Positions 6,151 to 56,081 of a DNA stretch of 64,000 nucleotides are shown piece after piece. Both the position numbers and the translations under genes were made by a program. The notes under the pieces are model-generated. The model had not been told where the DNA came from. It worked only from the letters and a program-made list of their open reading frames with translations, and did no database searches. Source of the DNA: Lepas anatifera (Eukaryota; Arthropoda; Thecostraca; Lepadidae). The stretch is from positions 4,737,001 through 4,801,000 of the forward strand of contig JAOTON010001685.1 of NCBI GenBank assembly GCA_034440635.1, in the 5' to 3' direction. Each line of letters begins with the position of its first letter. Position 1 is the stretch's first letter.

Positions 6151-6191
6151 AGCGGTGCTAAAACAGGCGCTTCGGCGCCGCCGGTTAGTTT

Positions 6192-7179
6192 GGCACTTCT
6201 GGACGTGCTGTTTGTGTCCTACACTCCTTGGCACTGTTGGACGTGCTGTTTATGTCCTACAGGCCGTGGCACTGTTGGACGTACTGTTTGTGTCCTACAG
6301 GCCTTGGCACTGTTGGACGTGCTGTTTATGTTCTACAGGCCGTGGCACTGTTGGACTTGCTGTTTATGTCCTACAGGCCGTGGCACTGTTGGACGTGCTG
6401 TTTGTGTCCTACACTCCTTGGCACTGGTGGACGTGCTGTTTGTGTCCTACAGGCCTTGGCACTGTTGGACTTGCTGTTTGTGTCCTACACTCCTTGGCAC
6501 TGGTGGACGTGCTGTTTGTGTCCTACAGGCCTTGGCACTGTTGGACGTGCTGTTTATGTCCTACAGGCCGTGGCACTGTTGGACGTGCTGTTTGTGTCCT
6601 ACAGGCCTTGGCACTGTTGGACGTGCTGTTTATGTTCTACAGGCCGTGGCACTGTTGGACGTGCTGTTTATGTCCTACAGGCCGTGGCACTGTTGGACGT
6701 GCTGTTTGTGTCCTATAGTCCGTGGTACTGTTGGACGTGCTGTTTGTGTCCTACAGGCCTTGGCACTGTTGGACGTGCTGTTTATGTCCTACAGGCCGTG
6801 GCACTGTTGGACGTGCTGTTTGTGTCCTATAGTCCGTGGCACTGTTGGACGTGCTGTTTGTGTCCTACAGGCCTTGGCACTGTTGGACGTGCTGTTTGTG
6901 TCCTACACTCCTTGGCACTGGTGGACGTGCTGTTTGTGTCCTACAGGCCTTGGCACTGTTGGACTTGCTGTTTATGTCCTACAGGCCGTGGCACTGTTGG
7001 ACTTGCTGTTTATGTCCTACAGGCCGTGGCACTGTTGGACGTGCTGTTTGTGTCCTACACTCCTTGGCACTGTTGGACGTGCTGTTTGTGTCCTACAGGC
7101 CGTGGCACTGTTGGACGTGCTGTTTGTGTCCTACACTCCGTGGCACTATTGGACGTGCTGTTGGTGTCCTATAGTCCAC
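6192..7179. repeat. 38-bp minisatellite, exactly 26 units
   Basis: A tandem array whose unit begins GGCACTGTTGGACG and continues GTGCTGTTTGTG. Unit starts fall at 6,192 and at 38-bp steps to 7,142, so 26 units fit without any insertion or deletion. Variation is by substitution at a few linked positions: TTTGTG or TTTATG; CAGGCC, CACTCC or TAGTCC; ending TT or GT; and CTGTTGG or CTGGTGG. Because 38 is not a multiple of 3, the array is read in all three frames in rotation. No unit contains a plus-strand stop, so three long open frames arise. They are artefacts of the repeat. Confidence 0.95.
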
Positions 7180-7851: not shown

Positions 7852-8019
7852 AACACAATCAGTGGCGGCGGATAAAGGAGGGCAAGAGAGGGCAGTTGCC
7901 CCCCGCAATATTATCAGAGGGGCCCCCGGAAAAATATGCAATTTTAGCTTGGTTCTTTTCTGAAAGTTCATGAACGACCTGACTGAGCCCTCAGCAGTTT
8001 CTCGGTTTGGACAGTGTCC

Positions 8020-8910
8020 GAGCTTTATCTCAGGGGCCCTGAGCTTGGGCTCGGGGCCCCTCTAGCTTGGGCTCGGGGACCCTCTAGCTTGGCCTTTAGG
8101 GGCCCCCAGGCTTAGCCTAAAGGAACCCTCCGAGCCTGGTCTCAGGGGTCCCAGAACTTGGTCCAAAGGGCCACCGAGCCTGGTATCAGGGCCCCCACTC
8201 TGTCTCAGGGGCCCCCGAGCTGTTCCTCGCCCCCCCGAGCTTTGTCTCAGGGACCCCCAAGCTTGGTCTAAGGGGCCCCCAAGGCTGGTCTCAGGGCACC
8301 CAAGCTTAGGTTTAAGAGAGCTCCCCGAGCTCGGTCTCAGGGGCCCTGAGATTATCTAAGGGGCTCCGGAGCTTGTCTAAGGGGCCCCGAGCGTGGTCTC
8401 AGGGGCCCTCCAAGATTGGTATAAGGGGGCTTCGCAGATTGGTCTAAGGGGCCCCGAGATTGGTCTTAAAGGGACCTTTAGCTTGGTTTCAGGGGCCTCA
8501 AGCTTGGTTTCAGAGGCCGCCAAGCTTGGTCTCAGGAGCCCCCGGGCTTGGTCTCAGGGCCCCCGGAGCTTGGGCTCGGGGGCATTTGAGCTTGATCTCT
8601 AGGAGCCCCCCTCCAAGCTTGATCTCAGGGGGCCACCGAGCTGTGTCTCAGGGCTCGAACTTGGTCTCAGGGGGGCCTCCGAGATTGGTCTAAGGGGCTC
8701 CCGAGATTGGTCTTAGGGGGCCTTGAGCTTGGTTTCAGGGGCCTCCAAGCTTTGTTTCAGAGGCCCCCAGACTTGGTCTCAGGGGCCCCGAGCTTGGTCT
8801 CAGGGGCCCTGAGCTTGGGCTCGGGGGCCTTCGAGCTTGATCTCTAGGAGCCCCCAAGCTCCGTCTCAAGGAGCCCCGAGCTGTGTCGCAGGGCCCCGAG
8901 CTTGGTCTTG
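8020..8910. repeat. Degenerate GC-rich minisatellite
   Basis: Dozens of diverged units of about 20-25 bp built on the theme GCTTGGTCTCAGGGGCCCC. The period drifts and units vary by substitution and indel, unlike the rigid 38-bp array 1 kb to the left. It lies wholly inside the hAT-like element. Open frames here are repeat artefacts. Confidence 0.85.
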
Positions 8911-16100: not shown

Positions 16101-16173
16101 TGTACATCCACCGAGCCTATGTGACCGTGCCGGTGCGTCTGAAGGTGTGTGCGTTCTCAGGCGCGGGACTGAC

Positions 16174-16356
16174 CTCGTCCAGCAGATGGCTGTAGGTGCT
16201 GGCCTGCTGCTGACTCTTGGCCAGCGTCTCGGCTAGGTCGGTGCGCAGCTGCACCAGCTGTCCGGCGTCGGCGCGGTGGTGCGCACGCGCACTCTGCACG
16301 GCGTCCTCCAGCGCGCGAATGTCCCCCTCCAGAAGCGTCTGGCGCGACTCAGCATT
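16174..16356 (-). CDS. Coiled-coil gene exon 3
   Basis: 183 nt (61 codons, phase 0 to 0) between acceptor CTCGACAG and donor GACGAG|GTCAGT. It encodes a continuous amphipathic helix rich in Gln, Arg, Ala and Leu. Confidence 0.75.
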
Positions 16357-16716
16357 CTGTCGAGCACGTAGAATATGAAGCACTCCTATCGGTTACATAT
16401 ATAAACATTACATCTGTTACAAAGACCACGTGGTAATAAGAAGCTACGTGATTGGTTCATGAACTCATTACCGAGCTGTAAGCCTCCATCCTGTCGCCTT
16501 ACCTGTTGCCGCTGAAGCAGCGCTGTCGAGTTGAAGCTCTCGGCAAGGTCGGTCACCTGGCCCTTCAGCATGTCTACCATGTCTTTCAGCCACAACACCA
16601 GCGTATGGTCAGCCCCAGCGTCTGACTGTGAAGAAGCAGCTGCCGCCGAGTCCTTCATCACGCGGATCTCCCGACTGCGGAGAGAGGTGATAGGAATCAG
16701 AGATGATCTCGACAAC

Positions 16717-16773
<57 letters not shown>

Positions 16774-19700
16774 GAGAGCATTGCCCCGACAGATCGTCGC
16801 AGAGAATCTTCCGACTGCAGGGAGGGGCGACCGGAGTCAGAGAGCATCGCCCCGAGAAGCGTCAGAGCTCCGTCACGCGTCCGACTGTGCGCGCCAGAGC
16901 ATCAGAGAGGACCTGACTACGAAGGACACACGGTGGAGAATCAAAAAGGACTTACTGAAAGCGGGGATTGCAGTTTTAAAGTCTATCGACGACTAAGAGC
17001 GCCACGGGTGTGCATTTGTTGGTGACGACGTCGAGAAGATTTTCAGTCTGCCGCGCGAAGCACCTCTTCTTACCTCGGAACTTGATGCGATCTTTCGTTG
17101 TTTGGACGAAGTGTCCAAGTCAAGAGCGAGGAAATTTGGGATTTTCGCCGTCTCACTGTCCTCCTTACAGTCGTTGAAGTCGTATCAATTTTACAATGCA
17201 TCATCATCTTATCTCTTGACTCTTACCTATATGGCACAAGCTGCACAGCCTAAAGGAGAAGGGGAAAAGCATATGCATTGTTTTTGTTCCAAGTCACTGT
17301 GGCATCAGTGGAAATGGTTGCGCTGACAGAGCTGCAAAGACTGCGGGAGAACGTGCCTCTCGTGAATTATTGAAACGTCTCTGCGATTTGTTTAGACATA
17401 GGCACGCGATGTGAAACAGACACTGTCAGACTCTGAAGTTTTCGTGTTTTTTTTTCATGCTGAGCCCTGGTGGTTTAGCTCTTTAGGACGTAACCACCCG
17501 GTCTTATTAACCAACTTGCTGAAACTCATACATATATGTTTTATCTATATTTATGGGCGCCATATGACCGGTGTTGTCGAGGTACCCAAAAATCCCAATC
17601 ATGATGACGCAGCCTATCAACGCACTGGCTGCCAGGGTTATATGACGTAACAAAATCTTTCCCAGTTGAAATTTCCCACCAACCCGCCAAAATACTGAGA
17701 ATACGTTTTTTTCAAACCGTTCAAAGTCATAGTTCCTTGTTAAGTAATATACCTACTTCCCTAATTTACCAATATCGACGGGTAACATTGGGCCCAGCTG
17801 TACCTTCTCGGGTTTCAGATATTAATTAAGAACTTGTCATGATCATCATTGAAACGTCTTACTCGCTTTGATGTGATTTTGAAGTCAGGGTCTAAAATCT
17901 CAGACATGATTTGTAATGCACACATTTGAAACAATGGCAATGACCTCAATATTACACTTGATGAAATAAAATAATGTGTGTTTTATCAACACGCAAATTG
18001 AACTGCATAAAGCCAATTGCCTTTAGGGTGATGGGCACAAGAGCCTAGAGGATATTTCCAGACTATTTTGTCGTTTCATTGAGGGTACATGGCTCATTGA
18101 ATATAAGAAAAGAACGGCACCAGGTGACTTCATTTTGAACTTAATATCTCGCAGAAATTTAATCAAAGACGCTTTGAGTGAAATACAATATGCCAGAAGT
18201 AATTTTCGGCAAGTTCTTCACTTATTCCATTCTCATTATACTCATTCCAAAACTCATTACAGATGTGAAACACTCTCTTTAAGCTGACACATTGCCTTAA
18301 GTGGTACAATACGATACTCTGGGTGAAGGTGCAACGGAACATACCTTAAATAGGCGAGTTTTCAAGAAATAATAGTTCGTTTAGACGATAAACGTGAAGG
18401 AATAAAGCACAAAAACACGTTCCAAGCTAGCAACAGGTTTTGTTTCGTAGAAATATTATTAATGCAATTACATATTATTTCAGTAGCTGTTTGTTCAAAG
18501 TTTACCTTAATTTTTGAACATTCAGGAATATTGAGATCAGAATAATTATTCATTTTCCCCTCAGAACACATATTTTTGTCCAGAGGAAACGAGGTTCCCT
18601 CCGAAAGATAAGTGTTCGTTGAGTTCAGCAGGAGGGGATATGATTCTCCACAACGCGAGGAAGGACAGGGCTGGGTATCAGACTGGGAAAACATACTATA
18701 CTGAACGGTCCATCCCTATCTACCTCAATGGGTATCAATCTCAGTTTTGAAGATACTCAATCTTCTGGTTCCTCGATAATCCCAAACTATGTGGGCAATA
18801 TCGAAGATTCTCTAGCCTCTGCAGTAGCGTTGGTCTGGTTCCCTAAGAACCAATTAGTTATATCACAAAATTTGAATCATTCGGTCTTTAAGAAGGTGTT
18901 TACACTAGGTCTGTAGGGCAAAAAATACCGCCCCTGCCTTTGGTCAAACAAATGCGATTCGGCTATACAAATACGATATATTTAACTGAAGAACAAAATC
19001 AGATGAAGTCAATATAGGAATTACCCGGATATAAGCGACAGGGAATCAACTTAGCCAGCTTGGCGCGTGCCGCCCGCACGACTGAGAAAAACAAATACAC
19101 GGGGTTCAGCCTTCAGATCATAGCGAATAGTTCCGATGCTTCCTCGTCGACGCCCCATTTTTACATACCGGTATTTTTACTTTGATCTGAGTTCTTTGTC
19201 TATAGAAAAAGAAGTCAGATCAAAGAAAAAATACCGGCATGTAAAAATTCCACGGCATATTTTAAGCTACAAGGTGATGGGCATTTTTCCCACCAGTCCC
19301 CAACAGTCCCCCACATTCACAATGAACAGCCCTGTATAGCCAGTGTCCAACCAGTCACCGCTCGTTTGATGCTCAAGGAATGCCCCTTTGGTGGGAATTC
19401 GTGCACTTTTCAGCCGAATGCCCACCAGTCCCAATCCCTTAAAATTGTTATAAAGATAGCTCTCTTTAGAAACATCGACTAAAAACCAGAGGTGTACCGG
19501 AAGTGTGTTATCCTGCATTGTCATTGAAGACCCAAAAAAGTATTTTGAGTTATTTAGAAACATAAATATTGCTAGACGAGTTAATTAAAAACAGCTTATA
19601 AAGTAGGGATGGATTCCAAACCTAAGCTTAAATTTAATATTCCTCTGAGTGGCATTCCGTTGTAAAGTATCATTCTAGGTAAGCCTTTCCTGTTCAGTTT

Positions 19701-20511
19701 TATCCGATTATGTGCTGCTTATCAAGCTTGAGTCCTTTGAAGTGCTAAAAGCCTCTGCAGACTAACACAACGGCATTCGCACCATAGCAGGAACCGGACC
19801 AGCCGAGGACTCTCCGGACGCTCATTTGTATGCTATGATGAGTCTGAAGCGCTCTGATTATTTAACAAAGTTTTCCTAGGTTTTTCCCAACTTTAGCCAG
19901 GATGTGCAACCAACCCTTTACAATTCCACAACAACGAAAGAAGAAAAAGTAGATCAATGTATTTATTTCCTTTCGTGAAATCAGAGGCAAAAACAGGTGA
20001 CTTCGTTTTTCAGGCTCATCGTCCTAGTATATCCCTCCGGATGCAGGGACAAAATATTTCATGGACTTATCTTCAATAACGAGGATACATTTTCAGCTAT
20101 AATACAGCTAGGCCTGTTCATCTAAAATCATAATCAGCGGTCACAAAAGACCCTTGCCAGAAACAGAAGTGATGGTGTGGACTGGCTGGGCATGTCGTGC
20201 TGAGGACCGACTTACCTCATATCGTCGATCTCGGCGCGCATCTCTGTCAGGCTCTCAGCCACCGTGCCCCGCACGCGCACGTGGTCGGAGAGCTGGCGCA
20301 GCTCATGTCGCATGCTGGCCACGCCGCTCTGGAGCTGGCGGCGCGGCTCCAGCTCCCGCCGCAGCTGGGACAGCTCGGCCGCCTGCTGTTTCTGCTCAGC
20401 CTCCACAGTCTCCAGCCGTGCCGACAGCTTCTCCACCAGGCGCCGCAGACCGGGGTCGGCAGCCACCACCGCAGCCGCAGCCACCAGGCACACGCACCGA
20501 AGGAGCCACAT
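16174..20511 (-). CDS. Secreted coiled-coil protein, N-terminal three exons (partial)
   Basis: Three exons on the minus strand join in phase. Exon 1 (20,511-20,216) starts with an ATG in GCCATG context and encodes a signal peptide (MWLLRCVCLVAAAAVVA), then a long heptad-like coiled coil. Exon 2 (16,674-16,503) continues with an alpha-helical stretch including WLKDMVDMLKGQV. Exon 3 (16,356-16,174) is again coiled coil (TLLEGDIRALEDAV). All introns are GT-AG and the phases agree (2, then 0, then 0). No stop is reached, so the protein continues to the left, but I found no further exon within the window. The design (signal peptide plus coiled coil) fits secreted oligomeric proteins such as scabrous/angiopoietin-like proteins carrying a C-terminal fibrinogen domain, but that domain is not seen and the comparison is a guess. 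No frameshift occurs in the three exons. Confidence 0.75.
16503..16674 (-). CDS. Coiled-coil gene exon 2
   Basis: 172 nt between acceptor CTCTCCGCAG and donor CAACAG|GTAAGG. The first base completes the Ser codon begun in exon 1. It contains a Ser/Ala linker and one N-glycosylation sequon (NST). It ends in phase 0. Confidence 0.75.
16724..16779. repeat. (AG)n microsatellite near the exon 2 acceptor
   Basis: An almost pure AG run with one C interruption. On the gene strand it reads (CT)n and sits about 50-105 nt upstream of the exon 2 acceptor, inside intron 1, so it acts as an extended pyrimidine tract. The serine/leucine and arginine/glutamate repeat frames here are not proteins. Confidence 0.9.
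16780..19150. other. Intron 1 of the coiled-coil gene, left part
   Basis: Lies within the 3.5-kb intron between exons 1 and 2. No other gene or identifiable element is seen. Confidence 0.4.
19157..19248. repeat. Hairpin, 34-bp arms
   Basis: 19,157-19,190 and 19,215-19,248 are inverted copies matching at about 32 of 34 bases, with a 24-bp loop. The arms contain TTTTACATACCGGTAT. It lies in intron 1 of the coiled-coil gene. It could be a MITE remnant or an RNA hairpin. Confidence 0.75.
20216..20511 (-). CDS. Coiled-coil gene exon 1 (signal peptide)
   Basis: 296 nt from the ATG at 20,511-20,509 to the donor GAG|GTAAGT. It encodes a hydrophobic leader followed by an uninterrupted heptad pattern (LRRLVEKLSARLETVEAEQ). 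The frame is open 26 codons further upstream, but the leader fits a start at this internal ATG. It ends in phase 2. Confidence 0.8.
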
Positions 20512-20629
20512 GGCCAGCGTCCGTCCCTCCCCAGACGGAGACGGCTTACTGTGCTTCAGTCTAGGTCGATGTTTAACAACTGAGCGCACTCACAGACGTT
20601 AAAAATCTCCAAGATATCTGACTACGTAG

Positions 20630-34854: not shown

Positions 34855-37800
34855 TTCAGGCTTCCATTACACCACAGTCAACTATAAGATTTCTTCCAGA
34901 CTCCACAGGCCCCAATCTTGACGAAAATTCACATTCACACGATTTTCAACGCCTTCTCCAGTCATGCAACTACAGCTCAATCTCGGACCTCAACGGAATT
35001 GGCGCTGCTGATGGGTTATCCTCCATAATCCACTTAAATATCCGTTCCCTGCCAAAAATTTTGATTCTTTATCAGCTTTGATATACCAATTAAAGTACAA
35101 GCCCGTAATTATTCTTATAACAGAGGCATGGCTGGACCCAGAACTTGCCAGTTCCTACGAGCTAAAGGATTACACATTTGAACTTGCATCCCCCTTGGAA
35201 TACCGTGGAAAAGGGGCTGGTATGTATATCCATAACAAACTTCACTATAGCAGGAGGAGTGACCTTGGTTCAATTGCCATTCAACACCAGTCTGTCGTTA
35301 TTGAGGTTCACAATGTTTTTCCCTTCCACTTTGTGGTGGGTGTTGTTTACAGATCTCCCTCTTTCCCATCTTCTATTTTCCTAAATTACTTAGACAAAAT
35401 TCTTGATAATTTATCAGATGAGAACAAGATATGCTTAATAGGTGGTGACTTCAATTTTGACATCCTGAAATCAAAAAGCATCGAATCAACTGAACATTTT
35501 CTTCAGTCTCTGGGCTCGTATGGTTTTCATCCATGCATTTCGCTTGCCACGAGAATCACCAGTGAATCTCAAACTCTTATTGATAACTTTTTTAGTAATG
35601 ATCTTTCCATATTGAAATCTTCTCATGTATTGTTCTCAGATGTAAGTGACCATCTCCCTATAGTTGTCAACCTCAGTACCGCTATTAGGCCAAATCTGAA
35701 AAAAGTACAGCAACACCATCATTCGATTTCACAAAGGTCGAAGCTCTGAAAACTAGCGTAGTTAACAAACTTGCTGACTTTTTCTCTATCGAGGATCCGA
35801 AACAAGCTTCCAACTTGCTTCAATCTACCATTACCACAGAAATTTCTCGTTTTTCCATCACCAAGTCAAACCGTAGGGAGGTACCGATCCGTCCATGGAT
35901 CTCTTTTGGACTTCTAAAATGCATAAACAAAAAGGCAGATCTGTATAAGAAATTTCTGAAATCCCGAAACAAAGAAGATGAGGGCAGATATAAATCCTAC
36001 AATAATGCTTTAACCAATATCATTCGTAATGCTCGGAATCTTTACTTCAAACGTAAGCTGAGTGAAAACAAAGACAACCCTAGAAAACTGTGGGACACTA
36101 TGTTAACTCTTGTGCACAAAAATAAATCAAGAAAGGACCTTCCAGATCAGTTTAAGCTCGGAAACAAACATGTTAATGACCCGTTGGAAATTGCTCATGA
36201 ATTCAACAAATTTTTCTCCACTGTCGCAATGTCCCTAGATTGTGCACTACCACAGTCCACCTCAGATCCTCTGCAATACATAGATACACAACCCGATCGC
36301 CTTTTTCGGTTCCAACGGATTAATGCAGAAACGGTGTTGAAGATTATTTCCTCACTTGGAAGCACTGGTGCAGCGTATGATCGTATCAGCTCCAAAATTC
36401 TCAAACTTATTGCTACTTCTGTTGCCCCTCATTTAGTCCACTTGTTTAACCTTTGTCTTTCTTTTGGCATATTCCCAGACGAGCTGAAGAAGGCAACAGT
36501 TGTCCCAATATTTAAGTCAGGGGATTCTTCCCTGTTCACCAACTATAGGCCAATATCGATTCTTCCCATTTTGGCAAAAGTCCTCGAAAAAAATTGTGTA
36601 TGCTCAACTCTCTGATTTCTTAACAGAGGAAAACATTATCTATCAAAACCAGTTTGGCTTTAGGAAAGATCATAGCACTCTAATGCCAATTGCTCTACTC
36701 TATGACGATATAACTGCCTTCAAAGTATCCAAAAAAGTTTCCGCCTCCATCTACCTAGATTTTAGCAAAGCTTTTGATACCGTAAATCACGAAATTCTTC
36801 TTGGAAAGCTTAAACGCTACGGAATAAGTGGTACTTCTCTAAATTTCTTTGAAACTTACCTCTCAAATCGCAGTCAAATTGTAAAATACAATAATGTTAT
36901 TTCAAAAACACCTATGGCATTGCCCATGGGAGTTCCACAAGGCAGTGTCCTAGGCCCCCTTCTCTTCATCCTGTACATAAATGACATATATAAAAGTTCT
37001 AATACCCCTAATTTCTATATATTTGCCGATGACACCGCCTTACTGTATTCTGCTAACAACATTCAAGAACTGCAAGACAAAATCAATAATTCTCTCCCAA
37101 ATGTAACATCCTGGCTCCATTCAAACAGACTCACAATTAATACAAACAAATCAACATATCAGTTTTTCTCATCGTCTGTGGAGCATAACATTAACATTTC
37201 CATAAATAATAAGTCTTTGGAGCGAAAATTTTCCACTAAATACTTAGGTATAACATTAGACGAGGATCTGAGGTGGACAAATCACATAGGAAATGTTGTG
37301 AACACCATATCGCGAAATATCGGTTTAATTTGTCGAACAAAACAAACATTTGACTCGTGTCATCTCCTCCTGCTCTATAATGCTTTAGTGCTACCCCACT
37401 TAAATTACTGTCTTCCGGTCTGGGGCAGTACCTTCCCTTACCGGCTTAATAAATTAGTTCTCCTTCAGAAAAGAATTGTCCGCATAATTAGTAATACTGA
37501 CCGCCTAGCCCACACCAGCCCCCTTTTCAAAAACATAAAATTCTGAAACTACCTGACCTTGTTGAATATGCTCAGATCAACATCCTTCATAACTTCCTTC
37601 GGCACTCACTACCTGCACCATTATCGGATCGATTAAATTTACTTACCCCAAACCAAACTGATAGAACGAACCGTCAAACCCATCACTTTCTCATTCCCTT
37701 TGCTCCTACTATGTATCGCAAATTTTCATTTTTTGTTGCTGCCCCCCGTGTGTGGAATAAAGTTGTAGCATCGAAAATTACTAGTCTGGAAGATGTCCCT

Positions 37801-37857
37801 CTAAGCAAGCCTTTCTTCCGTAAAGTTGTCTCAAAACTGTACCTAGATATGTATTAG
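34855..37857 (+). pseudogene. LINE ORF2: APE endonuclease and reverse transcriptase, frameshifted
   Basis: Endonuclease: HLNIRSL (about 35,031), TEAWLDP, VVYRSP, GGDFNFD (about 35,442) and SDHLPI (about 35,647), the usual APE catalytic series in order. Reverse transcriptase: NYRPISILP (about 36,540), QFGFRKDHST, DFSKAFDTVNH, PQGSVLGPLLF and the catalytic FADD box at 37,022-37,033. C-terminal: LPHLNYCLPVWG and, in a shifted frame, a tail ending at the TAG at 37,855. Frame breaks lie near 35,057 (A run), 35,715, 36,590 (A run) and 37,530 (A run). Family knowledge: ORF2p nicks target DNA and primes reverse transcription there. As written the copy is inactive. Confidence 0.85.
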
Positions 37858-46773: not shown

Positions 46774-46923
46774 ATGTCGACATCGAGTGCTCTGTGTAGG
46801 CTCTTCGGAGGAAGGAGTCTATTCTGTATTGCAGCTCGAGCAAAGCCGTTACACTTCTTGTATCACAGAGACCTATCCTTGTCATATTTTGTGACCATGT
46901 CAACTATGGATTTCAAGTACAAG
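46774..46923 (+). CDS. FPGS: FPGS exon 1: mitochondrial leader and alternative cytosolic start
   Basis: ATG at 46,774 opens a 50-codon frame to the donor TACAAG|GTAAGT (phase 0). The first 33 residues contain five Arg and many Ser, Ala and Leu but no acidic residue (MSTSSALCRLFGGRS at the start), typical of a mitochondrial targeting peptide. A second in-frame ATG at 46,897 (MSTMDFKYK) sits in a GTGACCATG context and aligns with the cytosolic start of vertebrate FPGS. Alternative starts for the two isoforms are established for this gene in mammals. Confidence 0.75.
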
Positions 46924-49900
46924 GTAAGTATTTATTGAAATGATAGTCATATTAAGGTATGTTTGGTTGACCTCCAGTCATGGAGTCAACATCGGATGGA
47001 TGCCTATCGTGCTACACTCTAAAGGTATCTTGCTACACTCTTGCCTGTTCAATGGGGGAAGCTGTATCAGTATCCAGTTCCCAATAATAACAATGACAGC
47101 ACATCCCAATAATGATAATTATGACCAATTTTTGAAAATACTTGCTTCAAAGATGGAAACTTTTCAAAAATTTTAATTCATATGGTAGCTCTTACATGTT
47201 GTAATGATATACTGCTGCTATATTTACTAGCTAGGTAGTTTGTATAAGACAGGCATCTCAACAAGGTCTTTTGGGACAGCTCAAATCCAGCCCCAATTGC
47301 AATGGGGAAATATATTTGGTTGCTGGGAAGACTTTTCTTTACACTGGGGCAAACATTTTCACTTAATGCTGTAGCAAGGCCACAAGAAAACAATAATCAC
47401 TGTTTCTTTGATCTTATTTAGTGTTTTCATCTCAGCCTCAGCCATCCTATAGAATGTGGCAGACTCATACGAGATTTCGTTGGGGCAGCCTTAGAGAAGA
47501 TCCACCAGTTTGGGACAGCTTTTTCCAAGCTTCGGTCAGGAAATGGTACTTTGGGCGAAAGTCAGCTGGGGTAACCTCAGAGAGAACAAGAAGAAGAATA
47601 AATAAAAGCAAGACAATAAGTTGAACTAGCTCCAAAAATCTCATTTATCTCAAATGCATCATATTTGTTGTCAAGTATAATATGTCTGAAAAGTTACCAG
47701 ACAGGAAATCCCAATTGAAATGAAGTTTCTAGAAGTAAAGAAGAAAATCAGTCAAAGAATGCCATTGAAATGCTGGCTGTATAATTTTATCTAAATCTGA
47801 ATTCCAAGCCTAATTATTGTCTAAAAATAATCTTGTAACTGCAAAGATTTCACTGTATGTAAATCTTTGCATATCTTATGTCATGTGTCGACCACTAAAT
47901 CAAGGCTGCCAAATCATGCAGGCTTCCCCCAAATCATGAGCTGGTTCATGGTGTGACATCAAATAGTAGTGAACAGATATTTCTTCTGGTGGGTGCATTG
48001 AAAATATTCCAAACTTTGTGATTTTTGTGATGCTTTCTTGCAAATGTGACAGTGCACAAGGAGTCAAAATATGTTCCAAATGTAGATATAAAGCATTCTG
48101 TTTGAATATGGTTGTTGTTTGAATATTTTTAATAGTATTGATTGGTATGCCCAGGAGGCAGAGTCCAACAGGTCCAGATCGGTCCCATGGAAGGCTTCCG
48201 GACCAGGGGGGCTCCACTTGTGACCAACAGACCCATCAGGTGGCTGCCATATCCCATCGGTGGGCACCAATTTTTGCATCCTGGGGGGGGGTGCAGTGTG
48301 AAGCAACATTTTAGGGGGCACCAAAGGTTGATCGGGGGTGCACCTGCCTCTCTCCCTGGCCCTGCCTATGCTATGGTGTGCCCCAGGACCAGTCTGCAAA
48401 GTATGGCAGCAGGCCAGACGAGTCGCACCAGCCATCTAAAATTCTCGCACCACCAGCCTCCAAAAATTCACACCAATCTGCCACATACCAGGGGAAAAAT
48501 GCACCCATTTCTACCCCTACAGTGCAATACTACCTCAATCATTAGTCAGTTAGTTAAGGACTTTTTATAAGGCCCTCTCCTGTGTCTTAATAGCCATTCA
48601 GTCATTATTTGTTTAGTTTAAGTGTCACTAACCTCACAAATTTGCACCAGGTTGATAAAATTCACACCACTTGGTCCTGTCTCCAAGGGCACTCGCACCG
48701 ACGAGATCTCGTCGAAAATGCCATTTTTTGCACACTGGCCCCAGGATGTAGACCCCACACACTTCAATCATTTCGTTGGAGGGTGATAGGGGTAGAATTC
48801 TAGGGGAAGGAAAAATTGAGGGGTTGATTGCCACTTGCGAATACATTTTTGGGATCTTTAACTGGGACACAGCATGTGGAAAACTTCAGACCCACTTACC
48901 CTCTGCACCCTCATTTAATACGTTTTAAAGGTAACTGATGCTTCTATTAAAGGTGTACAAACCCTTTTGTTGGTATTAGGGGGAGGGGAGTTCGGGATCT
49001 TATCTGATTAATTCCAGCACATGCCTTAAAACAATTTCTTTCTAATTCCAGTTTTTCTTGGTATGCGTTTTAGGTGGACGTCTGTTTTCATTTTCGCTGT
49101 GAGGTCCAGCTGTATTCATCTGTTCCTTTCAGCATGGGCTGAGCAGCATTCCTGGTTTCAGTGTGTGGGTCAGCAGCGTACCTGTGTTGTTTTCAGTGAG
49201 TGACTGTTCTTCCCTGTGTGTGGTTGTCATTTTCAGTGTGTGGTTCAGTAGCATACCCGTGCTACCGTTTTCACTGTGTGACTTTGTTTTTCAGTGCGCA
49301 ATTGAGGCACTGAACTCGCTGCAGTCCAACCAGGCTTCGATCGAGCAGCGGCGGCTGGAGCGGCACCGTCATCCGGAGCGGGGCCTGCTGCAGACGGCAG
49401 CCTGCCTCCGGCTGGTGGGCATCACTCCCGAACAGCTCAGCCAGCTGAGGGTGGTCCACGTGGCAGGTCAGCGAGGAGTGCTAGGTTTACTGCAAAATGG
49501 AGAGCAGGTGGGACCAGCTGTGTTGTGTGCGGTGTTTTTCTCTCTTTTGTATTTTTGTATTGTGTATTAACCTGAAAAGGAACGTATTCATGGCTAAGTA
49601 AGGGAAATGGTTTAAGGTTGACTGCAACGTGATGACGGCCCGATTTCAAGAATTTTATTAGTTTTTCTGGTCTTCTTATCTTAAAAAGAGACATGTGATG
49701 TTTAGAGTTTAGGTCCCCTGGAACTCCTCCCTCCTTCCTCCCACACACTCAGTTTTTCCTCGACGTGAACCGGATTCGTAAAATATGTGTCGTGCATAAA
49801 GCATCCATAGTTTTGCATCTCCTCTGATACCATTTACTGCACCAAATGGACAGGGATTCCGGTGAAACTCGAGAGCGCATATGTCAGGCATTGTTCGGGA

Positions 49901-52900
49901 ATTGGTTATGTTTCAGGTACACGTTACTGACGTCAGCTTGCCTTGTTCCAGCTGTGTTGTTGAGACTGGTCAAAGGAGATTTTGACGGCGGATCGTGGCG
50001 TGAACATAGGTTGAATTAATATCCCCTCGACTCGTCCTACAGGCACGAAAGGCAAGGGCTCGACGTGTGCGCTAGTGGAGTCGCTGCTGCGCGCGCACGG
50101 CCTGCGCACCGGCTTTTCTCCTCTCCGCACCTGGTGGCCGCGCGCGAGCGAATCCGGCTGGATGGCCGACCCATCTCGGCTGAGGCGTTCACCACCTACT
50201 TCTGGGAGGTGTACGACCGGCTGGAGCGCGGCAAGGTTAGTGGCCGGCGCCCCGTCCTGCTCAGCTCTGGGCTCTGTGAACGGGAGACAGTGACTGCTCC
50301 AGGGAGGCTCCAGGGGCTGGCAGAGAAGCGGGGGAATAGATTTTAAGTGTAGTTACGGTGTATTTCGCGGAGAGCATTGTGCAGTCCAGTGACGTGAATT
50401 GCAGACAGTCAGTGGACAAAAGTGAGTACTTCCTGAAAATACTGAAGCATTCCGTGTAAAGGTAACCCTCATTAGAAGAGGACAAAATGCCAGTGGAACT
50501 ATGAAGGGAGTGTTAAACCTGTGTCTCGAAAAATACCGCTACAGGACTGTGCGTTAAAGTCATATTGCCGGTTCGGGGTTTAAATATTTAATCATTATCG
50601 GAACCAGGGTCCAGTCTATGCGTTCCCTGTAGGAAAAAAACTCATAAAACTGCCCTAGACCAATTGGTAAGTCTCAAAATACAATTATGACATAGCTATG
50701 CTGAGAAGTATTTGTCGGAATGAGCTATGCTCAGACAAAAGTCCGCCTAGATCTCCGTGGCACAAGAAGCGTCTACTTTCCGGTTCTCGTCACTGATTTG
50801 TTACTTCCTATTAAAACACTTCCTATGGGACGCCGCATGATTCAAAATATCCAATGCTGTTGTCAGGATAGACCAGGAACCAATGTAGTCGTAATCACGA
50901 CTGGGGCTCTAACTTTTACTAGCACCTATGGGCTCGGCGTCTCGCGTTATGAGTTCATTTTGCCATATTTTGCATGTGGGGCAAATACCCAGCTAATCTA
51001 CGAATCGAGTTCTGGAAGTAGTAAGTTGGGAGCTAAGGTCGGGCTATCACCTTTTTCTGCAACGTGATGACCTGTGCTTTACGTTGACATGATAGACTAA
51101 AGTTTTACTACGTTCTGTTTAGGAGAGTCGTTAGCTGGATTAACCGGCACCTGGTGCTCCGCTGGTTGTTAGCTCATTCCCGCAGCCTCGTTGCCGGACA
51201 CTGCGTCTGACCTGTGCCGAACAGGACGAGGAGGAGCCGATGCCGATGTACTTCATGTTCCTGACGGTGCTGTCTCTGTACGTGTTCGTGCGCGAGCGGG
51301 CTGGACGTGGCCGTGATGGAGGTGGGCATCGGGGGCGCCTTCGACTGCACTAACGTCATACGGTGGGTCATGCGGCCCGTCCCAACCCCTGTTCTCGGTG
51401 GACCGGGGCTCAGCCCAGCTGGGCTTAGCTGCACAGCCTGGCCGCAAGTTTTATGATAATTTTTCAGTAAAAAAACTAGAGGAATATAATTGTTAACATT
51501 CCAAATGACATATTCTGCTCTATCTGCCGTCACATAATTGTGCGGACAGGATATCGATGAGAACTCTATGTCGTGTATAATGTTAAGGTGTTTGCTAGGT
51601 GCCATTATTGCGAGTGGTCATTCCAGAAACTGACCGGGATCCTGACCTCGGTTATCTTCTAGTCCTATGGTGCCGCCGGCATGACTTAGTGAAGTGTGCT
51701 GTTGATAGTATTCTCAGGCACAGACCGCAGTGAAGTCCGTTGGCAGCGTCGCCAGCTCTTGTGTCTGTGCCAGGAGTCCGGCTGTATGCGGAATCACCCA
51801 CCTGGACTACGACCACACGGCCATCCTGGGCTCTCGTATCGAACAGATCGCTGAACAGAAGGCCGGCATCATCAAGCCGGGGGTGCCTGTGTTCGTGGGG
51901 CAGCAGCGACACGCAGCCACTCTACCCGTGGTCGCCGACCGCGCTGCTCAGTGTCAGGTGTGAAGAGGGTACAGTGTCAGACGGGGAGGGGAGGGGCAGA
52001 GACAGACTCGGAGATGAAGCGGCGTGAGATGGGATGGAGAGGACAGCGTCAGGTGTGATGTAGGAAACTGAGATGGAGTGTATAGAACAGCATTTAGTGT
52101 GATGTAGGAAACTGAAATGGGGTGGAGAGGACAGCGTCAGTTTGAATGGAGGAAACTGAGATGGGGTGGAGAGGACGGTGTCGGGTGGAACGGAGGAGCG
52201 GCAGTGTTAGATGGGGAGGAGCGACAGTATCAGTTGGGTTGGAGGGGACGGTGTCAGGCTAGTGCCATTCATGACTGAGGGCAGAGGCCTGCTGACGCCC
52301 TCACCTGTGCCGTCGCTCTCCCAGAGCGCGCTGCGGATGGTGCCGGAGTTGGACGAGTACCTGAGTCCAGAGGGCAGCCGGCCGCAGCTGGGTCTGGCGG
52401 GCCACTTCCAACGCCAAAATGCCTCTCTGGCTCTCCAGCTGGCCAGATACTGGAGACGCACCGCTGGTCAGTATCGAGTCGGATACCTCTGCTGCGCCCG
52501 CCTGCTGTTGGTCTCATCCTCTGTTACTGTCAATCGAACCTAAAATATTGATGTCACGCTGAGAAAAACGTAATCCTCTTCCCGATTGTGCTGAACATGC
52601 TACCGCATTTTTTCCTATACGTGGTTTTCTGGTCATCCGTATCGTTTCTAAGTACGTAAGCTTTGTCGCGGGCGAGGAAGTTTGGTTCCTCTGTACCTGT
52701 GTTAGCAACGAAGATCTTTGTTCTGACACCAGATCACCATGTCCGGTCAAGAGTTGTATTCCTGAATCTGATACATTTGTTTACGCTTTGATGATACGCG
52801 CACCACAAGTGCAGCAATGTCATCAGCTGCTAAATGCTTGCACCGGTTAGCGTTCCGTTGCCTGAACTTGGACACGTTGCCTCGCCGTGCCGGTAGTCGT

Positions 52901-55900
52901 CCCGTCGCGTGACAGTGCCGTGCCGGCAGGCGGTCTGGCGGCCTGTCTGGACGCCGCGCCGCCGGTGCCGGAGGTACGCTGGCGCGGGCTCAGGCATTCC
53001 AGCTGACGGAGACCGAGGCCTGCGCTCTGGCTGACTGCCGCTGGCCCGGCAGGTGTCAGGTCAGTCGCTCGACTCACCAGGGAGGTCTGGGCCAGTGTCT
53101 GGTCAGTGACTCACCAGGGAGGCCTGATGGTTGTCGGGTCACTGTCTGGTCAGTGACTCGACTCACTAGGAAGCTCGGGCCACTCTGGTCAGTGACTCAC
53201 CAGGAGGCCTGGTGGTTGTCGGGTCACTGTCTGGTCAGTGACTCGACTCACCAGGGAGCTCGGGCCACTCTGGTCAGTGACTCACCAGGGAGGCCTGATG
53301 GTTGTCCGGGTCACTGTCCGGTCAGTGACTCGGCTCACCAGGGAGCTCGGGTTACTCTGGTCAGTGACTCACCCGGGAGGCCTGGTGGGCGCCGAGTCAC
53401 TTACTTTGGTGTTATGTTTCTTTTAATTAGTTGGTTCTTTTTGTTCGTTTCTTTTTTGTTCTTGATCGTTTTCAAATTTACTTTGAAGTTGAAAATAAAG
53501 AATAGTTATATCTTTCCCGGCATTAATGATACTTCTATGCATGAATGGAGCGTCATATGTGCTTGTATGTTTCCTGAGGTTATATTACTGTACCGTGTTC
53601 TCCCCCCGATGTCTGTTTTTTAAATATTTTTGTGTTCCCAACCCGGGAACATTTTTGCACATTACACCACACACACTCAGACACACACTATGTACACGGC
53701 AGCGGGGCTTACGCTTATTGGCACCGTTGCGGGACAATCACGTCCGCACGCTCCATGTCACGCGCCCCACTGTACCAGGCAGTGGAGCTATCCCGATTTC
53801 TCGGGCCCGGCGGAACAGAGGACCGCTCCGGTGACACGCGGCGAGGCCGTGCCCCGGGCGGTGCCACCGGACCGGTGGAGCTATTTAAAGGCAGATCAAG
53901 CCCGGGCTTCTAATGACAATGGCGCCGGTTGGTCAGCGGAAGTCCTTAGTCAAGGCGGGCACTATACAGTGTACTGCCATCTCCTGGGTAGGAGGCGGTC
54001 GAGGAAAACGCTGCCAGAGGTCAGCTTTGATCCAAGGACCTCCCACACTTGACCGAGGCGCTTTCACCAACTGCGCCACGGCGGTGGTCGCCGATGTCTG
54101 TTAACGGTACCGTGTTCTCCCCAATGTCTGTTGGCGGTGCCGGGGCACCACGGTGCCCTGTTCCTTCTCTAACATTCGCTGATGGTTCCGCAGTGCCCTG
54201 TTCCTCCCCTGTCGTCGTTGCTGACTGTGCTCTTTGCCTGAGGTCCGTTGGCCGTGCGCCGCAGGTGGTGGTGCGCGGCGCGGTGGAGTACCTGCTGGAC
54301 GGCGCCCACACGGCCGGCTCGGTGTCGCTAGCTCTCCCGCTGGTTTCCAGCAGGAGGCCTCCAGAACCGCTGGGTAGGTCGTCAGTGGACTCCGGCCCGC
54401 TCGCCTGCAACCGGTCAACGCTGAGTTCCAAACTGTCTGGTCTGTGTTTTGTCTACGTTGAATCCATCTACAGATTTCACCCATGCGATCAGGCGACCAT
54501 CACTTTACACGTACGTGTATTTGGTTATATGCTCCGAAAGCTGAGAAAGAAATTACTGCACACTGTCGTTGCTGGTGGAGCCGACGGTTCTCTCTGTTGC
54601 TGCTTACAGCACGGCGGCGCGCACAGTACTCCTGTTCTACTCAACTGGGGCGAGGGACCCGGAGGAGCTGCTGTCCTCTCTGGCAAACGCACCCTGGGAC
54701 GACGTCATCTTCTGTCCCAGCGTCGCCTGGCCCGTCCAGGACGCTACCTCAGGTCAGTGGGACGTCACACTGAGCTGTGGTGACGTCATCTTTCGTCCCA
54801 GCGTCGCCTGGCCCGTCCAGGACACTGCCTCAGGTCAGTGGGACGTCACACCGAGCTGTGGTGACGTCATCTTTTGTCCCAGCGTCGCCTGATCCGTCCA
54901 GGATGCTACCTCAGGTCAGTGGGATGTCACACCGAGCTGTGGTGACGTCATCTTTTGTCCCAGCATCGCCTGATCCGTCCAGGATGCTTCCTTTCGCGCT
55001 GAGCCGTTGCTCACGACTGTGCGGTGTGCGCTGCATGGTCATTGGCAGAGTTGGCTGTCAGTTGGTGAGAGTTTCCAGAGCCTGGCTCGGTCGGCGACAA
55101 CGGATTGGTCTGTCTCTGTATCCTCTCGGCTGCAGTAATTGGTACATTTGTTTTGTTCTTTCAAATGGAACCACCGACCTATTCAGGCTATTCTACAGTC
55201 TCACGCCGTGGTGCTGGTGCCCCTGACTTTGGGCTGCGCAGCTGCAGCTCTGCTCTGCCGTTGACACCTGCCCCTGCTCCCCCGCAGACACTGCTAACCT
55301 GGCGGTGGGCGCGGGAGAGCACCAGAGCCAGGTGGAGGCGCACTGCCAGGCCTGGCGCGCGGTCGCTACCTCCCCGCCGCCGCTGCTGCCCGCATCCACC
55401 GCTTCTGCTGCATCAGCGACGCCGTCAATTACATTGAGGACGCAGAGAGTGCCCTTTACCCAGGTCAGAGAGGGGATGGTGCCTTTATCTAGGTTAAAGA
55501 GATTGGTGCTCTTAAGCCAGTTCAAAAGAGGGAGCGGTGTCCCCAGCCAGAGAAGAGAGGCGGCGGTACCTTTCACCCAGGTCAGGGAGGAAGACCTCTT
55601 GTCAACGTCAGACAGGAGGAGGCTCCCTCTGTTGAAATCTGACCGGGCAGGATGATATGCGGGGGTTACGGCGGGGACGAACTCCCTGCGGAGCCTCACA
55701 GTCACTCATCCCCAGGATATTTGGATTTCACTAATATGCCCTGTTCGCAGCCCTGAGTAAATGCAGTCTTTAGTTTTAATTATTGTAGCCAAAATTCCAA
55801 TTTTGTTTCAATGTGCCGTGTGTAAAACTTAACATCTCCCTTTCAGCAATCAGCATACCATGGCAGTGGGGGCGAGTGTTCAGTGTTTGGATTTTCGCCT

Positions 55901-56081
55901 GACCCCGTTTCCTGGCGTCGTTTGACCCTCGGCCGGTCGGAAGGTGTTTGCTGTGGGGTCTCTGCATCTGGTCGGAGGCCTGTTATCCATCATCGACCCA
56001 GACCTGTCATCGGTGGCACCGGCTGCCAGCCGAGAGGCCAGCCCGACCGGATCAGCGCGCCTGCCATCTAGCGACAAGTGA
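46774..56081 (+). CDS. FPGS: Folylpolyglutamate synthase, at least 11 exons
   Basis: FPGS adds glutamates to folates in cytosol and mitochondria, using ATP, so that they are retained and used in one-carbon metabolism. Motifs in order: NSLQSN; the ATP-binding GTKGKGSTC (split by intron 2); SSPHLVAARERIR; VAVMEVGIGGAFDCTNVIR; DHTAILG; KAGIIKPGVP; QNASLALQLA; WPGR; LLDGAHTAGS; LLFYSTGARDP; and VGSLHLVGG near the C-terminus. Exons: 46,774-46,923; 49,295-49,466; 50,043-50,235; 51,225-51,362; 51,774-51,957; 52,325-52,466; 52,930-53,059; 54,265-54,373; 54,610-54,752; 55,288-55,463; about 55,944-56,081 (stop TGA). Length, about 560 codons plus a short unresolved stretch before the last exon, suits the family. 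Small frame breaks occur in exons 3, 4, 7, 8 and 10. A working gene with assembly errors is more likely than a pseudogene, because motifs and splice sites are intact. Confidence 0.93.
48190..48370. repeat. Dispersed GGGCGCCA-type repeat, copy 2
   Basis: Contains GGTGGGCACCAATTTTTGC, ATCCTGGGGGG, CATTTTAGGGGGCACC and a CCCTGCC end, in the same order as 9,985-10,160. In FPGS intron 1. Confidence 0.5.
49155..49294. repeat. FPGS: Tandem acceptor-like units before FPGS exon 2
   Basis: TTTCAGTGTGTGGGTCAG, TTTTCAGTGAGTGAC, TTTTCAGTGTGTGG and TTTTCACTGTGTGAC precede the true acceptor TTTTTCAG|TGCG at irregular spacings of about 20-40 bp. Each unit looks like a polypyrimidine tract plus AG. Confidence 0.7.
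49295..49466 (+). CDS. FPGS: FPGS exon 2
   Basis: 172 nt, acceptor TTTTTCAG, donor GCAG|GTCAGC, phase 0 in and 1 out. Encodes the N-terminal helix with ALNSLQSN and the strand VVHVAG that leads into the P-loop. Several acceptor-like TTTTCAGTG words precede the true acceptor. Confidence 0.9.
50043..50235 (+). CDS. FPGS: FPGS exon 3 (P-loop), one-base frame break
   Basis: Starts by completing Gly, then TKGKGSTCALVESLL, the nucleotide-binding loop. The next conserved block, FSSPHLVAARERIR, is in the neighbouring frame. The switch falls at a run of four T near 50,112, where five are needed for the conserved Phe-Phe. Ends YDRLERGK before GTTAGT. With one base allowed, the phases on both sides fit. 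Confidence 0.9.
51225..51362 (+). CDS. FPGS: FPGS exon 4, one-base frame break
   Basis: Acceptor CCGAACAG, donor ATACG|GTGGGT. Reads DEEEPMPMYFMFLTV, then VAVMEVGIGGAFDCTN in another frame. The break is at GAGCGGGCTGG (about 51,295), where one G too many shifts the frame. Removing one base gives an alignment to the family without gaps. Phase 0 in, 2 out. Confidence 0.88.
51774..51957 (+). CDS. FPGS: FPGS exon 5
   Basis: 184 nt, no frame break. The first base completes Arg; then SPAVCGITHLDYDHTAILG, with the conserved Asp-His of the magnesium and glutamate site region, and QKAGIIKPGVPVF. Donor TCAG|GTGTGA, a weak consensus. Confidence 0.9.
52026..52250. repeat. 44-bp minisatellite in FPGS intron 5
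   Basis: Three clear units of 44 bp (GAGATGGGATGGAGAGGACA at the start, ending TAGGAAACT) plus diverged partial units. One unit contains GTCAGGTGTGA, the same word as the exon 5 donor junction (GTCAG|GTGTGA, 51,953-51,963). Confidence 0.85.
52325..52466 (+). CDS. FPGS: FPGS exon 6
   Basis: 142 nt, phase 0 in and 1 out, no frame break. Encodes LAGHFQRQNASLALQLA, the conserved G-x-HQ-x-x-N-A-ALAL region joining the two domains. Acceptor CTCTCCCAG, donor GCTG|GTCAGT. Confidence 0.9.
52930..53059 (+). CDS. FPGS: FPGS exon 7, one-base frame break
   Basis: Starts by completing Gly, reads GLAACLDAAPPVPE, then LARAQAFQLTE and CRWPGRCQ in another frame. The switch is near GAGGTACG (about 52,973) and is cured by one extra base. 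The WPGR motif is diagnostic. The donor is CAG|GTCAGT. The N-terminal third of this exon is less certain than the rest. Confidence 0.8.
53050..53400. repeat. 86-bp minisatellite at the start of FPGS intron 7
   Basis: Units of about 86 bp, each with two half-units carrying GGTCAGTGACTC and ACTCACCAGGGAG, beginning at the exon 7 donor itself (CAG|GTCAGTCGCTCGAC). About 3.5 units. The frames crossing it are artefacts. Confidence 0.85.
53401..53605. other. FPGS intron 7, AT-rich part
   Basis: T-rich sequence between the minisatellite and the SINE. Nothing recognised. Confidence 0.4.
53618..54090 (-). mobile_element. tRNA-derived SINE with 12-bp TSD, minus strand, in FPGS intron 7
   Basis: CCGATGTCTGTT occurs on both sides (53,606-53,617 and 54,091-54,102). 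On the minus strand the insert begins with a tRNA-like head (GCCGTGGCGCAGTTGGTG, A box TGGCGCAGTTGG) and a B-box-like GGTCCTTGGATC about 30 nt on. It runs about 470 nt and ends in an A-rich tail (AAAAATATTTAAAAA) next to the duplication. All parts of a SINE retroposition are present. The tRNA part does not fold as a real tRNA. It is a different family from the SINE at 43.0 kb. Confidence 0.82.
54265..54373 (+). CDS. FPGS: FPGS exon 8 (DGAHT motif), frame break near its end
   Basis: Acceptor GCGCCGCAG, then VVVRGAVEYLLDGAHTAGS. DGAHT is a signature of the folylpolyglutamate/Mur ligase C-terminal domain. After about 54,340 the frame must change by one to match both the conserved Trp-Phe position and the phase of exon 9. 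The exact indel is unclear. Confidence 0.82.
54610..54752 (+). CDS. FPGS: FPGS exon 9
   Basis: 143 nt, no frame break. Reads ARTVLLFYSTGARDPEELL and DDVIFCPSVAW, matching the family's VLLFNATGDRDP and FCPN motifs. Donor CCTCAG|GTCAGT. The last 52 nt and the first 29 nt of the intron form the first unit of an 81-bp tandem repeat. Confidence 0.88.
54701..55000. repeat. FPGS: 81-bp tandem duplication of the exon 9/intron 9 junction
   Basis: Units begin GACGTCATCTT at 54,701, 54,782, 54,863 and 54,944, exactly 81 bp apart; the last is partial. Each repeats the exon 9 tail (FCPSVAWPVQD) and the donor with its downstream 29 nt. 81 is 27 codons, so reading through stays in frame until a TGG to TGA change in the third unit. 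Confidence 0.92.
55288..55463 (+). CDS. FPGS: FPGS exon 10, one-base frame break
   Basis: The G from exon 9 plus AC gives Asp, then TANLAVGAGEHQSQVEAHC. After a C-rich run (about 55,370) the conserved RFCCISDAVNYI is one base out of frame. Donor CCCAG|GTCAGA. Corresponds to the VFSCISHALQWI region of the human enzyme. Confidence 0.82.
55440..55640. repeat. FPGS: Degenerate 27-30-bp tandem repeat at the FPGS exon 10 donor
   Basis: Units resembling GTGCCCTTTACCCAGGTCAG recur about six times with drift (GTGCCTTTATCTAGGTTAAAG, GTACCTTTCACCCAGGTCAG and others). The first unit is the exon 10 end plus its donor. Confidence 0.7.
55930..56081 (+). CDS. FPGS: FPGS last exon
   Basis: From about 55,944: VFAVGSLHLVGGLLSI, the near-C-terminal GSLHLVGG motif, then a Ser/Pro/Ala tail to TGA at 56,079-56,081. 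The acceptor is uncertain (AAG at 55,943 is the nearest). About 20-25 residues expected between exon 10 and this motif are not accounted for, so a small exon or another frame break is likely in 55,464-55,943. No AATAAA closely follows. Confidence 0.78.

Follow-up and report, generated by a model that had tools for sequence, protein, structure and literature searches.

Tandem arrays set on splice sites in the FPGS gene and other genes of the barnacle Lepas anatifera

Introduction

Tandem copies resembling minisatellites and lying across exon-intron boundaries have been described in amphioxus under the name of mirages, in the Adh3, globin, troponin C and PGBD5 genes, and have been called possibly general in cephalochordates (PMC3087553, PMC3902484; Canestro 2002 cited therein). 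Here we present arrays of this anatomy in a barnacle, Lepas anatifera, within a window (the whole stretch of DNA analyzed, 64,000 nt) at positions 4,737,001 to 4,801,000 of contig JAOTON010001685.1 (assembly GCA_034440635.1), where the region between 46.9 and 56.1 kb is the gene of folylpolyglutamate synthase (FPGS), with eleven exons and ten introns. The structure itself is already known; what is new here is the lineage, an arthropod, and the apparent frequency. Published systems are compared below on the basis of the portions of the cited papers that were consulted.

The barnacle arrays resemble the amphioxus mirages in being minisatellite-like copies that lie across 5′ as well as 3′ exon-intron boundaries (the amphioxus units measure 10–160 bp), and likewise in carrying AG/GT in many units and in varying in copy number, which in amphioxus depends on the haplotype (PMC3087553). 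They differ in the arthropod host and in their presence in 15/60 sampled introns outside FPGS. In human, the variable number tandem repeat (VNTR) of ABCA7 intron 18 also starts at the GT donor of exon 18 and has a unit that carries the donor, but it consists of 25-bp units in approximately 12 to 427 copies, is linked to disease and has a decoy one unit downstream that is used (PMC5954066). For amphioxus, RT-PCR (reverse transcription PCR) suggested normal splicing (PMC3087553), whereas the barnacle arrays are known here from DNA alone. The human CBS 844ins68 allele is similarly a tandem copy of an intron-exon junction, of which the distal, exon-side copy is used, although it is a single duplication and not an array; a 31-bp VNTR of the same gene is a marker placed across a donor by its name only (PMC2630376). 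Minisatellites at exon-intron boundaries have also been reported in human segmental duplications, where they change splicing patterns, but these belong to recent primate paralogs and some of them form novel introns (PMC2812944). Among the matches listed in our search of the open-access literature, which left most subscription papers outside, no junction-spanning repeats were found in a barnacle or other arthropod.

Arrays at the Splice Sites of FPGS

Each FPGS intron, extended by 90 nt of exon at each end, was compared with itself, a block being defined by at least 16/20 identical positions at offsets of 8–399. Arrays set on splice sites were identified in introns 1, 5, 7, 9 and 10, at four donors and one acceptor (Table 1), while introns 2, 3, 4, 6 and 8 had no self-similar block under the same rule; the proportion of five in about ten given by the initial annotation, which had been made from the letters alone, was therefore confirmed. 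Its statement that the repeats abut the exons also held, as the first blocks at the four donors start 7–59 nt inside the exon (12 nt in intron 5, 59 nt in intron 9 and 16 nt in intron 10). When the five arrays were placed randomly in their own introns, with an exon overlap of 60 nt allowed, the observed contact with splice sites was reached in 0.1% of the trials. Alignment of the units showed that the splice site stands at a constant place within each of them, in register. Blocks away from the splice sites were limited to four small ones (20–58 nt) in intron 1 and one (54088–54213) in intron 7.

In intron 9, described in the initial annotation as starting with a tandem repeat of the exon 9 tail plus donor, three full copies are followed by a broken fourth, copies 1–3 are 89–91% identical across 81 bp and their donor 9-mers are identical. 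In intron 7, the near copies of the donor are present, but the unit is not the simple 86 bp initially proposed, since a first unit of 42 bp is followed by alternating pairs of 39 and 46–48 bp. The intron 5 array, composed of two segments (51946–51993 and 52022–52260), does include the donor word. The repeats of intron 10 (two segments, 55448–55501 and 55554–55592) and the acceptor-like words at the end of intron 1 were also recovered, but both arrays are weak and degenerate and remained unlisted by Tandem Repeats Finder (TRF) at its score of 50.

Recurrence of each splice site within its own intron was assessed against dinucleotide shuffles (200 for 40-mers, 300 for 14-mers). The donor 40-mers of introns 7, 9 and 10 recurred with p = 0.005, which is the floor of the test, and that of intron 5 with p = 0.04, while the other six FPGS donors were not significant. 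The donor 14-mers gave p = 0.003 for intron 7, 0.007 for intron 9 and 0.04 for intron 10, whereas for intron 5 the result (p = 0.096) did not reach significance. For acceptor 1, the 14-mer was significant (p = 0.02) but the 40-mer was not (p = 0.27). The remaining eight acceptors apart from acceptor 6 were significant in neither test. Acceptor 6 itself (40-mer p = 0.035, 14-mer p = 0.007) owes its score to one copy located approximately 40 nt upstream; this single near copy, at 52887, may represent a sixth, two-copy case. Chance was rejected on the basis of the shuffles and the placement trials, and the presence of arrays on the FPGS splice sites is confirmed.

An origin from a common mobile sequence or from introner-like elements was ruled out, as no unit is common to the FPGS introns. 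The donor 40-mers of introns 7, 9 and 10 score 20, 34 and 17 in their own introns and at most 13, 11 and 10 in the other FPGS introns, and the TRF consensus units differ from gene to gene.

FPGS on Three Contigs

FPGS was also located near the ends of two other contigs, C238 and C1850, of the assembly searched (1.04 Gb, 2126 contigs; the window corresponds there to C1582:4737001–4801000). The intron 9 array is 100% identical in C238 and 96% in C1850, and its length does not vary among the three contigs. In the intron 7 array, the window and C238 both have eight donor words, while C1850 has six and another unit length. Over an aligned length of approximately 9.5 kb, C238 differs from the window at 6/1563 exon sites and 22/7620 intron sites, while the corresponding values for C1850 are 19/1563 and 287/7496 (introns up to 3.8%).

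This comparison bears on the possibility of an assembly artefact or a pseudogene, a suspicion raised by the window frameshifts in exons 3, 4, 7, 8, 10 and the last exon, by the fact that exon 3 is broken in two of the three contigs and by one apparent frame change of exon 10 that is present in all of them. Against it, C238 and C1850, which bear the same arrays, both lack the indels of exons 4, 7, 8 and the last exon, together with one indel of exon 10; exon divergence is three times below intron divergence; all 20 splice-site words were found in the three contigs (up to three substitutions allowed, GT and AG kept); and similar arrays exist in chaperonin, adaptin and kinesin genes. The exon 3 frameshift is common to the window and C238 and absent from C1850, which has its own frameshift in exon 5, and six of the seven exon indels among the three contigs are private to a single one. 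We read these frameshifts as sequencing errors in an assembly of uncollapsed haplotypes, the exon 10 change counting against this reading. An artefact or a pseudogene is thus judged very unlikely, with one apparent frame change of exon 10 left unexplained. Coding exons carry one-base indels, and reading frames called from a single contig of this assembly are therefore unreliable.

Arrays in Other Genes of the Assembly

Three Pfam families were picked before their sequences had been seen: PF00118 (CCT chaperonins), PF01602 (adaptins) and PF00225 (kinesins). A script used profile positions, frame and splice scores to locate the intron separating each pair of adjacent exon matches; pairs separated by more than 25 profile positions were passed over (seven in CCT, seven in adaptins, none in kinesins). 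A stricter rule was applied, requiring a block of at least 60 bp and counting an array as touching when it crossed a splice site or came within 10 nt of one. For adaptins, 30/48 matches were used, chosen with the lengths of open frames in view; C1055 (the partner of C1407), C1460, C1130 and the far-apart exons of C316, C1407, C152 and C2123 were left out. For kinesins, 8/128 matches from two compact genes were used, which favours short introns.

Blocks were present in nine of 38 CCT introns, eight of them touching the acceptor, in seven of 16 adaptin introns, six of them touching (three donors and four acceptors), and in one of six kinesin introns, where the block touches as well. Outside FPGS, 17/60 introns therefore have arrays and 15/17 of these touch a splice site, so that the enrichment at splice sites expected from the initial annotation was observed and not refuted; the 60 introns of three families are a small and partly convenience sample, and the frequency of about one in four may differ across the whole genome. 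With FPGS included, the strict rule gives arrays at the donor in five of 70 introns and at the acceptor in 14, one intron being counted at both, and the words of an intron's own sites were counted in 64 introns as 15 copies for donors (3.3 expected) and 33 for acceptors (0.4 expected).

Contig C624 has 12 copies of a 54-bp unit, the real site included, each spanning the acceptor and the initial 38 nt of exon; C1508 has 21 copies of a 41-bp unit with the acceptor and the exon head; and C152 has six copies of a 43-bp unit formed by the exon tail and GT. Contigs C1407 and C1055, which bear the same adaptin exons, have 6 and 23 acceptor copies, respectively, the real one included. Their peptides are identical over the compared parts and their DNA is 98.7% and 94.7% identical; they are either alleles or recent duplicates.

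Placement of the Arrays and GC Content

Under random placement of the arrays in the 17 array-bearing introns outside FPGS, 1.3 introns would be expected to touch a splice site when confined to the intron and 5.3 when 60 nt of exon are allowed; the observed 15 were reached in 0/20000 placements. Base composition contributes to this excess. The array blocks have an exon-like GC content of 0.61; in array-free introns of at least 300 nt (n = 40) GC is 0.52 in the first 100 nt, 0.55 in the last 100 nt and 0.46 in the middle, and the exons flanking these introns have 0.61 and 0.63. Placement matched for GC raised the expectation from 5.3 to 7.5 (SD 1.9), and 15 was reached in 1/20000 trials. GC content alone was consequently rejected, and since it covers only part of the excess, a further factor is needed: selection against wholly exonic duplications, a hotspot at the junction, or both. 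That splice junctions are hotspots of tandem duplication over and above the effect of GC, with breaks at co-transcriptional structures as one conceivable route, is possible though rather unlikely; the excess that survives GC matching speaks for it, but the GC control is coarse and leaves aside both selection against exonic duplications and the history of each array. The density of TRF arrays (score at least 60, period at least 15) per 10 kb was 4.4 in FPGS, 0.7 in the rest of the window and 2.0 in 110 kb sampled by contig number and position, a set which has no gene annotation and is thus uninformative on placement.

Decoy Splice Sites

Candidate decoy donors were scored with a generic donor matrix of approximate frequencies; position 55494 has no GT and was left out of the counts. 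In intron 9, the real donor (54753) shares its 9-mer, and hence its score, with two decoys (54834 and 54915), and in intron 5 the real donor (51958) does so with one (52053). The real donor of intron 10 (55464) scores slightly below, or about equal to, its decoy at 55581, while that of intron 7 (CAG/GTCAGT) outscores all seven decoys (CTG/GTCAGT or CCG/GTCAGT). Splicing at the first of the intron 9 decoys would lengthen the protein by 27 residues, in frame, and the second would lead to a stop. A minisatellite of the IFI6 (6-16) gene reportedly supplies several splice donors, going by the title of a 1995 article with Turri as first author.

The decoys may alter splicing, as the initial annotation suggested, and they raise the question of whether the repeated sites are kept by selection to regulate or secure splicing. 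Several are intact, and of the ten scored across introns 7, 9 and 10, seven would lengthen the exon with the reading frame kept and no stop (5/7, 1/2 and 1/1, respectively). Yet copy number varies by contig (8 or 6; 6 or 23), GT has been lost in several copies of the intron 5 and intron 10 arrays, half of the FPGS introns are free of arrays, and the decoy of intron 5 would shift the frame and run into a stop, all of which make such a role very unlikely. Where introns 5, 7, 9 and 10 lie, the predicted proteins of Pollicipes and Amphibalanus carry no inserted residues. The Amphibalanus record (P0002) is missing the tail of exon 5 and picks up again close to where exon 6 begins, which may be a problem of the gene model beside intron 5.

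Intron Growth and Proposed Intron Birth

The initial annotation had proposed recurrent birth or growth of introns. Growth by tandem duplication at splice sites is supported in FPGS and beyond, while birth is not. According to the model of Rogers, introns are born by tandem duplication of exon segments bearing AGGT; such gains have been reported in fission yeast and argued for other genes (PMC3629103, PMC4974935), and the barnacle units carry CAG/GTCAG, that of intron 9 even including exon coding sequence. However, the array ends at least 64 nt before the acceptor in introns 5, 7, 9 and 10 (the 3′ part of intron 9 is not repeat), so the donor and the acceptor are not copies of one segment, and the position and phase of intron 9 appear to be common to distant taxa. 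Three records that look like read-through isoforms, from Panulirus (P0008, ending in ...SASSGKFFCQ), Carassius (P0040, ...CNAGKRR...) and a mammal-like source (P0111, ...GNAGKRG...), all fit a G/GTAAG donor at the position of barnacle intron 9 (phase 1), where most other records compared continue with DQ. Introns 1 and 2 also have counterparts elsewhere: in vertebrates the alternative first exons are joined where intron 1 lies, and an isoform from Procambarus changes where intron 2 lies. These positions are based on protein predictions and not on genomic records, and no evidence of age was found for introns 5, 7 and 10 in the FPGS protein records compared. Overall, birth by this route is very improbable, and for intron 9 it was rejected on the position that it seems to share with lobster, goldfish and mammal-like FPGS.

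FPGS Gene Model and the Rest of the Window

The ten introns were set from sequence landmarks and agreement with the protein record P0001 (Table 1); placement of the intron 8 donor is uncertain because of the local frameshift. The conceptual protein, obtained by joining the exons, presents its best match with FPGS of Pollicipes pollicipes (69% over the whole query), followed by a 60% match with that of Amphibalanus amphitrite. Another FPGS record, P0019, has a coding repeat of LLTEEERGVS-like units between the parts that match barnacle exons 6 and 7.

Table 1. Exons of FPGS and arrays at its splice sites, in window coordinates (a slash marks the splice junction).
Feature	Position	Strand	Remarks
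Exon 1, end (DFKYK)	46909..46923	+	donor AAG/GTAAGT; residues match P0001/P0002
Intron 1 array	49153..49286	+	degenerate units containing TTTTCAGTGTGTGG words; stops 8 nt short of acceptor
Exon 2	49295..49466	+	
Exon 3	50043..50235	+	frame broken in window and C238, open in C1850
Exon 4	51225..51362	+	one-base frameshift, not in other two contigs
Exon 5	51774..51957	+	
Intron 5 array	51946..52260	+	23- and 44-bp units, one 72-bp unit; repeats CAGTGTCAG/GTGTGA
Exon 6	52325..52466	+	
Exon 7	52930..53059	+	frameshift, not in other two contigs
Intron 7 array	53053..53401	+	eight GGTCAGT words; begins 7 nt inside exon 7
Exon 8	54265..54373	+	donor put at 54374; two bases more than other two contigs
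Exon 9	54610..54752	+	
Intron 9 array	54694..54996	+	3.6 copies of 81-bp unit (exon 9 tail and donor)
Exon 10	55288..55463	+	one frameshift not in other two contigs; second, apparent frame change in all three
Intron 10 array	55448..55592	+	degenerate 27-33-bp units repeating CCTTTACCCAG/GTCAG
Last exon, start (VFAVGSLHLVGGLL...)	55944..56079	+	one base fewer than other two contigs

Elsewhere in the window, broken frames similar to those of non-LTR (non-long terminal repeat) retrotransposons are located at 35012–37854 (+), with an RVT_1 domain at 36488–37543 (E-value = 3.3e-27). This was the one reverse transcriptase found by Pfam among the other open frames of the window, everything else being below the cut-offs, including the exon-like pieces at 16126–20589 (−) of a secreted coiled-coil protein starting MWLLRCVCLVAAAAVVAADPG. 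Two further arrays, of 38 bp (26 copies) and 22 bp (41 copies), occupy 6191–7171 and 8018–8908; the 38-bp unit contains the acceptor-like word TCCTACAG, and no gene was recognized beside the array.

Discussion

The arrays are most likely minisatellites spanning exon-intron junctions, that is, the structure called mirages in amphioxus. Their tandem units span the boundary, many of them carry a splice signal in register, both 5′ and 3′ boundaries are affected, and copy number or unit length differs between contigs bearing the same gene (8 or 6 donor words in FPGS intron 7; 6 or 23 acceptor words in the adaptin pair). Several observations weigh against this reading. Exon-like GC explains part of the placement of the arrays, and 2/17 of the array-bearing introns outside FPGS, on C975 and C897, have no array touching a splice site, the adaptin array of C897 ending 28 nt short of it. 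Under the strict 60-bp rule only 4/10 FPGS introns have arrays and three of these touch (5/10 by the finer rule), since introns 5 and 10 have their arrays split into separate segments, and five arrays (FPGS intron 1, C1578 twice, C410 and C2123) stop 0–8 nt short of the exon. The splice sites outside FPGS are predicted by script from the edges of the profile (HMM, hidden Markov model) matches, and the donor chosen on C152 may be the second of its array. In introns 5 and 9, the decoys have the same 9-mers as the real donors, so that nothing at the site itself separates them. Finally, tblastn showed an apparent frame change inside exon 10 (55355–55400) in all three contigs, which may be due to a real defect, to systematic error or to a small intron that escaped notice.

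With regard to the origin of these junction-spanning minisatellites, slippage, unequal exchange or break repair would produce a tandem duplication of the exon edge, the splice site and some intron, and later unequal exchange would alter the copy number. A duplication including part of an exon would ordinarily disrupt the protein, but one that carries the splice site with it would be tolerated because the copy adjoining the rest of the exon, namely the first donor or the last acceptor, could still be spliced; all surplus copies would then become intron and the message would be restored. The internal exons of the sample have a median of 172 nt (n = 39) and the introns one of 657 nt (n = 64), dimensions under which exon definition would favour the innermost site. 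Exon edges would be over-represented partly because they belong to the GC-rich part of the gene and selection removes wholly exonic duplications.

The finding covers arrays in four gene families of one arthropod, in 15/60 introns outside FPGS, with an approximately fourfold difference in copy number (6 vs. 23) in one contig pair. It points to a route to longer introns and to the accumulation of cryptic splice sites without any new intron, and offers a system for testing the rules of proximity in splice-site choice. We tentatively suggest, as a proposition that may or may not hold, that in the barnacle lineage splice junctions are the main origin of intragenic minisatellites, that approximately one quarter of the introns grow by self-copied splice sites and that alleles differ by many decoys. 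If this is true, the genome would be a natural experiment on how the spliceosome chooses one of up to approximately 20 near-identical sites.

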